A DNA stretch of 64,000 bases, from the NCBI GenBank assembly GCA_025352125.1, contig JANXTZ010000033.1, positions 1-64,000 on the forward strand, given 5' to 3'. Origin of the DNA: Deinococcales bacterium. Its GTDB lineage: Bacteria; Deinococcota; Deinococci; Deinococcales; JAAFIG01. The notes beneath the pieces are model-generated. The model was not told the DNA's origin, ran no database searches, and worked only from the letters and a program-made list of their open reading frames with translations. The position numbers were made by a program, and so were the translations under genes. Shown piece by piece: positions 41,301 to 41,592 of the stretch (position 1 is its first letter; every line of letters begins with the position of its first letter).

Positions 41301-41592
41301 CCGCGATTTCGACAGGCAACCCGTGCGTGTCCCAACCGCCCTTGCGCGTGACATGAAAACCCTGCATGGATTTGTAACGCGGGAATAAATCTTTGAATGC
41401 CCTCGCCAGAACGTGGTGCATGGCGGGTTGACCGTTGGCGGTCGGCGGACCCTCATAAAACACAAACTCGCCTTTGGATGCAGCTTTGGCTTCGGATTGC
41501 GCGAAAATATTTTGCGATTTCCAAAACTTGAGCACTTTGGATTCGACTTCTTTGTAATTGGGTTGTGGACTGATTTCTAAAAACTTCGCCAT
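38359..41592 (-). CDS. ileS: Isoleucyl-tRNA synthetase, IleRS2-like, AMHH signature
   Basis: The product is 1077 aa, the size of IleRS. It charges tRNA-Ile and edits valine in the CP1 domain. The usual HIGH motif reads A57-M58-H59-H60 (in [18 protein letters not shown]), and the second signature KMSKS is intact ([10 protein letters not shown]). [20 protein letters not shown] and the C-terminal anticodon domain are complete. Placing His in the third position resembles the GxHH enzymes of the IleRS2 type reported to be highly mupirocin-tolerant. ATG 41592 follows GGGAGGTC. A T-box riboswitch controls it. Confidence 0.93.
   Translation of the reverse strand: [1077 protein letters not shown]

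Follow-up and report, generated by a model that had tools for sequence, protein, structure and literature searches.

An isoleucyl-tRNA synthetase (IleRS) gene, ileS, in the window (the whole 64,000 nucleotide stretch of DNA analysed here) encodes AMHH at the position of the class I HxGH signature. The questions raised are whether this is a genuine housekeeping enzyme, to which type of IleRS it belongs, and what the altered signature would mean for its interaction with mupirocin. Our reading, held with a probability of about 95 %, is that this gene encodes the sole housekeeping type 2 enzyme (IleRS2) of a Deinococcota-type bacterium and carries the Ala form of the published G/AXHH motif, with mupirocin hyper-resistance and control by an Ile-specific T-box as the predicted properties. 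The relevant features are as follows.

38359–41592, minus strand: ileS, type 2 isoleucyl-tRNA synthetase (IleRS2), 1,077 aa, ATG at 41592
39700–39714, minus strand: KMSKS signature, residues 627–631, canonical (alignment to 1ile and 8c8v)
41413–41424, minus strand: AMHH, residues 57–60, replacing the class I HxGH signature (translation, alignment and pattern search)
41611–41650, minus strand: hairpin resembling a terminator and ending in a U-rich tail, located after the T-box and before the start codon (read from the sequence; paired in the RNA fold)
41675–41918, minus strand: T-box leader preceding ileS (match to Rfam RF00230 at 83.0 bits, E 1.4e-17; the gathering score is 93)

The ileS gene and its signature motif

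A longer, mechanically defined ORF for ileS begins at GTG 41775. However, this extension overlaps the T-box leader and GGGAGGT precedes ATG 41592, so the ATG is the likely start; the residue numbering used in the original prediction agrees with it. Two further open frames were noted near or within the gene. A frame of 639 aa lies antisense to ileS (39469–41388, plus strand) and most likely reflects codon usage and not a gene. Downstream of ileS (35126–38245, minus strand), a large protein with AAA/TPR regions weakly matches the SARP-family regulator AfsR at its C terminus.

The protein scored 946 bits against TIGR00392 (cut-off 621), identifying it as an isoleucyl-tRNA synthetase, and includes the Pfam domains tRNA-synt_1, Anticodon_1 and the C-terminal, IleRS2-type DUF5915, which fits type 2 and not type 1. 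Its best solved relatives, 1ile and 8c8u-w/8c9d, are all IleRS2. As the scores to IleRS2 structures (861 bits to 1ile from Thermus thermophilus and 782–792 bits to the Priestia megaterium enzyme) are far above the 226–316 bits obtained with IleRS1 structures, the enzyme was classified as type 2. The T. thermophilus IleRS (1ile/1jzq/1jzs), though the best-scoring solved relative and of the same type, has the canonical HVGH where the window enzyme has AMHH, and the window protein is about 47 % identical to the HVGH enzymes with which it was compared.

AMHH is encoded by GCC ATG CAC CAC (41424–41413, minus strand), and an independent pattern search recovered the signature at 41413–41451 on the same strand. 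The alignment with 1ile has no gaps between residue 9 and the end of the motif, and AMHH falls on HVGH; it also aligned without gaps with the signature of P. megaterium IleRS2. Position 1 of the motif is thus Ala and position 3 is His, the combination (Gly or Ala, then His) that defines the swapped signature. Two editing-domain stretches (11 and 15 residues) are intact in the alignment to solved structures. The initial observation, A-M-H-H at residues 57–60 of an otherwise complete synthetase, was therefore confirmed by translation, codons and gap-free alignment, and by the intact KMSKS signature and domains.

An origin of the motif in a sequencing, assembly or frame artefact has next to no probability, as the same residues are present in independent assemblies from other genera, at 62–68 % protein identity. 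AMHH was identical in every sampled relative from the window's family and in Meiothermus-like genera (Meiothermus-like and Thermus-like are inferred genus labels, the motif being among their bases), and hence is neither an error nor due to chance.

A single housekeeping enzyme

The genome assembly (4.53 Mb, 84 contigs, 92.5 % complete) was searched for a second ileS using the family model and the protein as queries, and none was found. The weaker matches exceeded the curated cut-offs for valS, leuS, metG and cysS (ValRS, LeuRS, MetRS and CysRS). As no second gene was found, the window enzyme is the housekeeping IleRS, and it is unlikely that another copy was missed in an assembly of this completeness. 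The second ileS that the original prediction had proposed looking for, such as a HIGH-bearing paralogue performing the housekeeping function, was thus not found in the 92.5 % complete genome. IleRS1 and IleRS2 do occur together in some Bacillaceae (PMC10485003), and the window gene could in principle be a resistance copy alongside a normal HxGH enzyme. However, the failure to detect a second ileS argues against this very unlikely arrangement, as does the finding that, in the relatives searched, additional matches were listed only at low identity, like other class I synthetases.

The changed motif might instead reflect loss of Ile activation in an impaired or repurposed enzyme, since mutation of the first His reduces activation approximately 1000-fold in several class I enzymes (PMC10485003). 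We consider this equally improbable, because the enzyme is the only IleRS found in the genome, its KMSKS and editing motifs are intact and the motif is conserved throughout a clade, and because an ALHH homologue has a kcat of 45.5 per s (PMC10485003).

The plasmid-borne MupA and MupB of staphylococci are also IleRS2 enzymes. The window protein scored 720–732 bits against their NCBIfam models, far below the cut-off of 1900 that applies to both, and is 36–37 % identical to MupA. MupA and MupB are extra, acquired genes, whereas the window ileS is the sole copy found in its genome. A further plasmid IleRS was noted in pTML1 of Pseudoalteromonas sp. SANK 73390 (L108, 2962–6108), where the gene adjoins biosynthesis-type genes including one for a MupA-family monooxygenase. 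This IleRS has a canonical HHGH and is not swapped. As pTML1 is, we presume, the thiomarinol plasmid, self-resistance in this producer would not use the swap.

Distribution and history of the motif

A census using exact degenerate patterns in 111 genomes of the phylum, none of them recognizable as Deinococcus, recovered GxHH in 48, HxGH in 28 and AxHH in 27, while 8 matched none of these. HxGH was restricted to two genera of one family, here f5, which the evidence suggests is the Thermaceae. AxHH was found in three f5 genera other than these two, in a single f3 genome and in the window's family, where all four genomes have it. In a scan of contigs, only one close named relative was recovered, from a Thermaceae MAG (L043, 60 %); the other matches were distant IleRSs or other class I enzymes.

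Some individual sequences are unusual. In the f3 genome with AxHH (G110, L105), the IleRS reads ALHH and falls with the AxHH clade, but the enzyme of its congener (G009, L027) reads GVHH; this reflects either a transfer or a contaminant contig. The type 1-like IleRSs of Atribacteria and Desulfocapsa MAGs (L047 and L058) read HIGT or HLGT, with Thr rather than His as the fourth signature residue.

A tree of 51 IleRS sequences, which do not include D. radiodurans IleRS2, was built with the motif masked. The AMHH enzymes form one clade of 17 rows (SH-aLRT 100), which the single ALHH row joins, also with a support of 100. The GxHH IleRS2 enzymes (known from Streptomyces griseus in the literature and found here in f2, f3 and f4 genomes) share the swapped signature and the His at position 3 with the window enzyme, but have Gly in place of Ala at the first position and fall in separate clades. 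The HVGH enzymes group with the GVHH enzymes of f4, and the GIHH enzymes of f2 are adjacent. This placement of HVGH among GxHH enzymes fits the published view that HxGH in the Deinococcus-Thermus group is a reversion from the non-canonical motif (PMC10485003). Owing to long outgroup branches, the tree is only weakly rooted. AxHH may be derived from GxHH, as judged from the codons, with the change from Gly to Ala taking one base change (GGN to GCN). It is a long shot that the Ala form, which makes up a single clade in this phylum, arose by one such step from swapped GxHH and has been kept for something that GxHH lacks, such as exclusion of a different natural IleRS inhibitor or tuning of catalysis.

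A single clade of f5 IleRSs was rejected (p-AU 5.8e-8), as the Thermus-like HVGH enzymes lie apart from the Meiothermus-like AMHH enzymes. Replacement specific to ileS was considered for this split. However, in a control with ValRS from the same genomes, the Thermus-like genus grouped with f4 and a single f5 clade was likewise rejected. As the f5 ValRSs are also not one clade, no ileS-specific transfer is claimed and that explanation was dropped. One difference is left over, namely that the Meiothermus-like IleRSs are sister to those of the window's family, while the Meiothermus-like ValRSs are found with Thermus-like and f4 rows.

Mupirocin and the T-box leader

The motif class was named G/AXHH, with 'Gly or rarely Ala' at the first position, by Brkic et al. 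2023, who traced mupirocin hyper-resistance to it (PMC10485003). This was the only paper found when 5.39 million papers were searched for AXHH together with isoleucyl-tRNA synthetase. The second position is variable, and Met is among the residues listed there (PMC10485003). Introduction of GXHH raised the mupirocin Ki approximately 200-fold in two HVGH IleRS2 enzymes, and structures, which have been solved for P. megaterium IleRS2 with the wild-type and the swapped motif, place the nitrogen of the third-position His of GXHH at the site occupied by that of the first His of HXGH; modelling indicated a clash with mupirocin (PMC10485003). The wild-type IleRS2 of Deinococcus radiodurans (ALHH) has a Ki of 6.6 mM (6600 µM) at the kcat given above, and reversion to HVGH reduced the Ki to 8.1 µM (PMC10485003). 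This enzyme is, like that of the window, an IleRS2 in which the motif starts with Ala and has His as its third and fourth residues. The second residue is Leu rather than Met, and of the two enzymes it is that of D. radiodurans for which the Ki was measured.

The link originally drawn to IleRS2 enzymes with altered signatures was correct, and AMHH fits the published G/AXHH class. However, the proposal that an Ala at the first position is a further variant was not, as the class already includes the Ala form and the ALHH enzyme of D. radiodurans has been characterized (PMC10485003). By homology to that enzyme, the window IleRS is almost certainly mupirocin hyper-resistant. AMHH would block mupirocin from its site, giving a Ki in the millimolar range with little catalytic loss.

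The RF00230 match falls short of the Rfam gathering score here, as do those of most relatives, but it is a covariance-model match that includes an Ile specifier codon (AUC, 41830–41828) and a UGGN sequence, here UGGU (41705–41702), for the tRNA acceptor end. T-box matches were also found upstream of ileS in several relatives, and when eight leaders were aligned, both the AUC specifier and a GGUGGUA core proved invariant. The RNA fold of the hairpin region gave a z of only −1.74 for the region as a whole. D. radiodurans is again similar, since a T-box was reported in 2008 to be related to the ile tRNA ligase of this species (PMC2494555). The window ileS is thus probably under an Ile-specific T-box leader, judging from these sequence features. 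Such a leader would sense uncharged tRNA-Ile and control ileS expression and, if it is functional, mupirocin or a shortage of Ile would raise expression of the gene.

The kind of motif, its Ala form and its biochemical effect have all been published for the same phylum, and this case is real but ordinary. Little is new beyond the extension of a published resistance mechanism to an uncharacterized lineage and the presence of the swapped motif in the sole IleRS of a genome. With the census, the spread of HxGH, GxHH and AxHH within one phylum is more densely sampled, which helps in choosing enzymes to compare.
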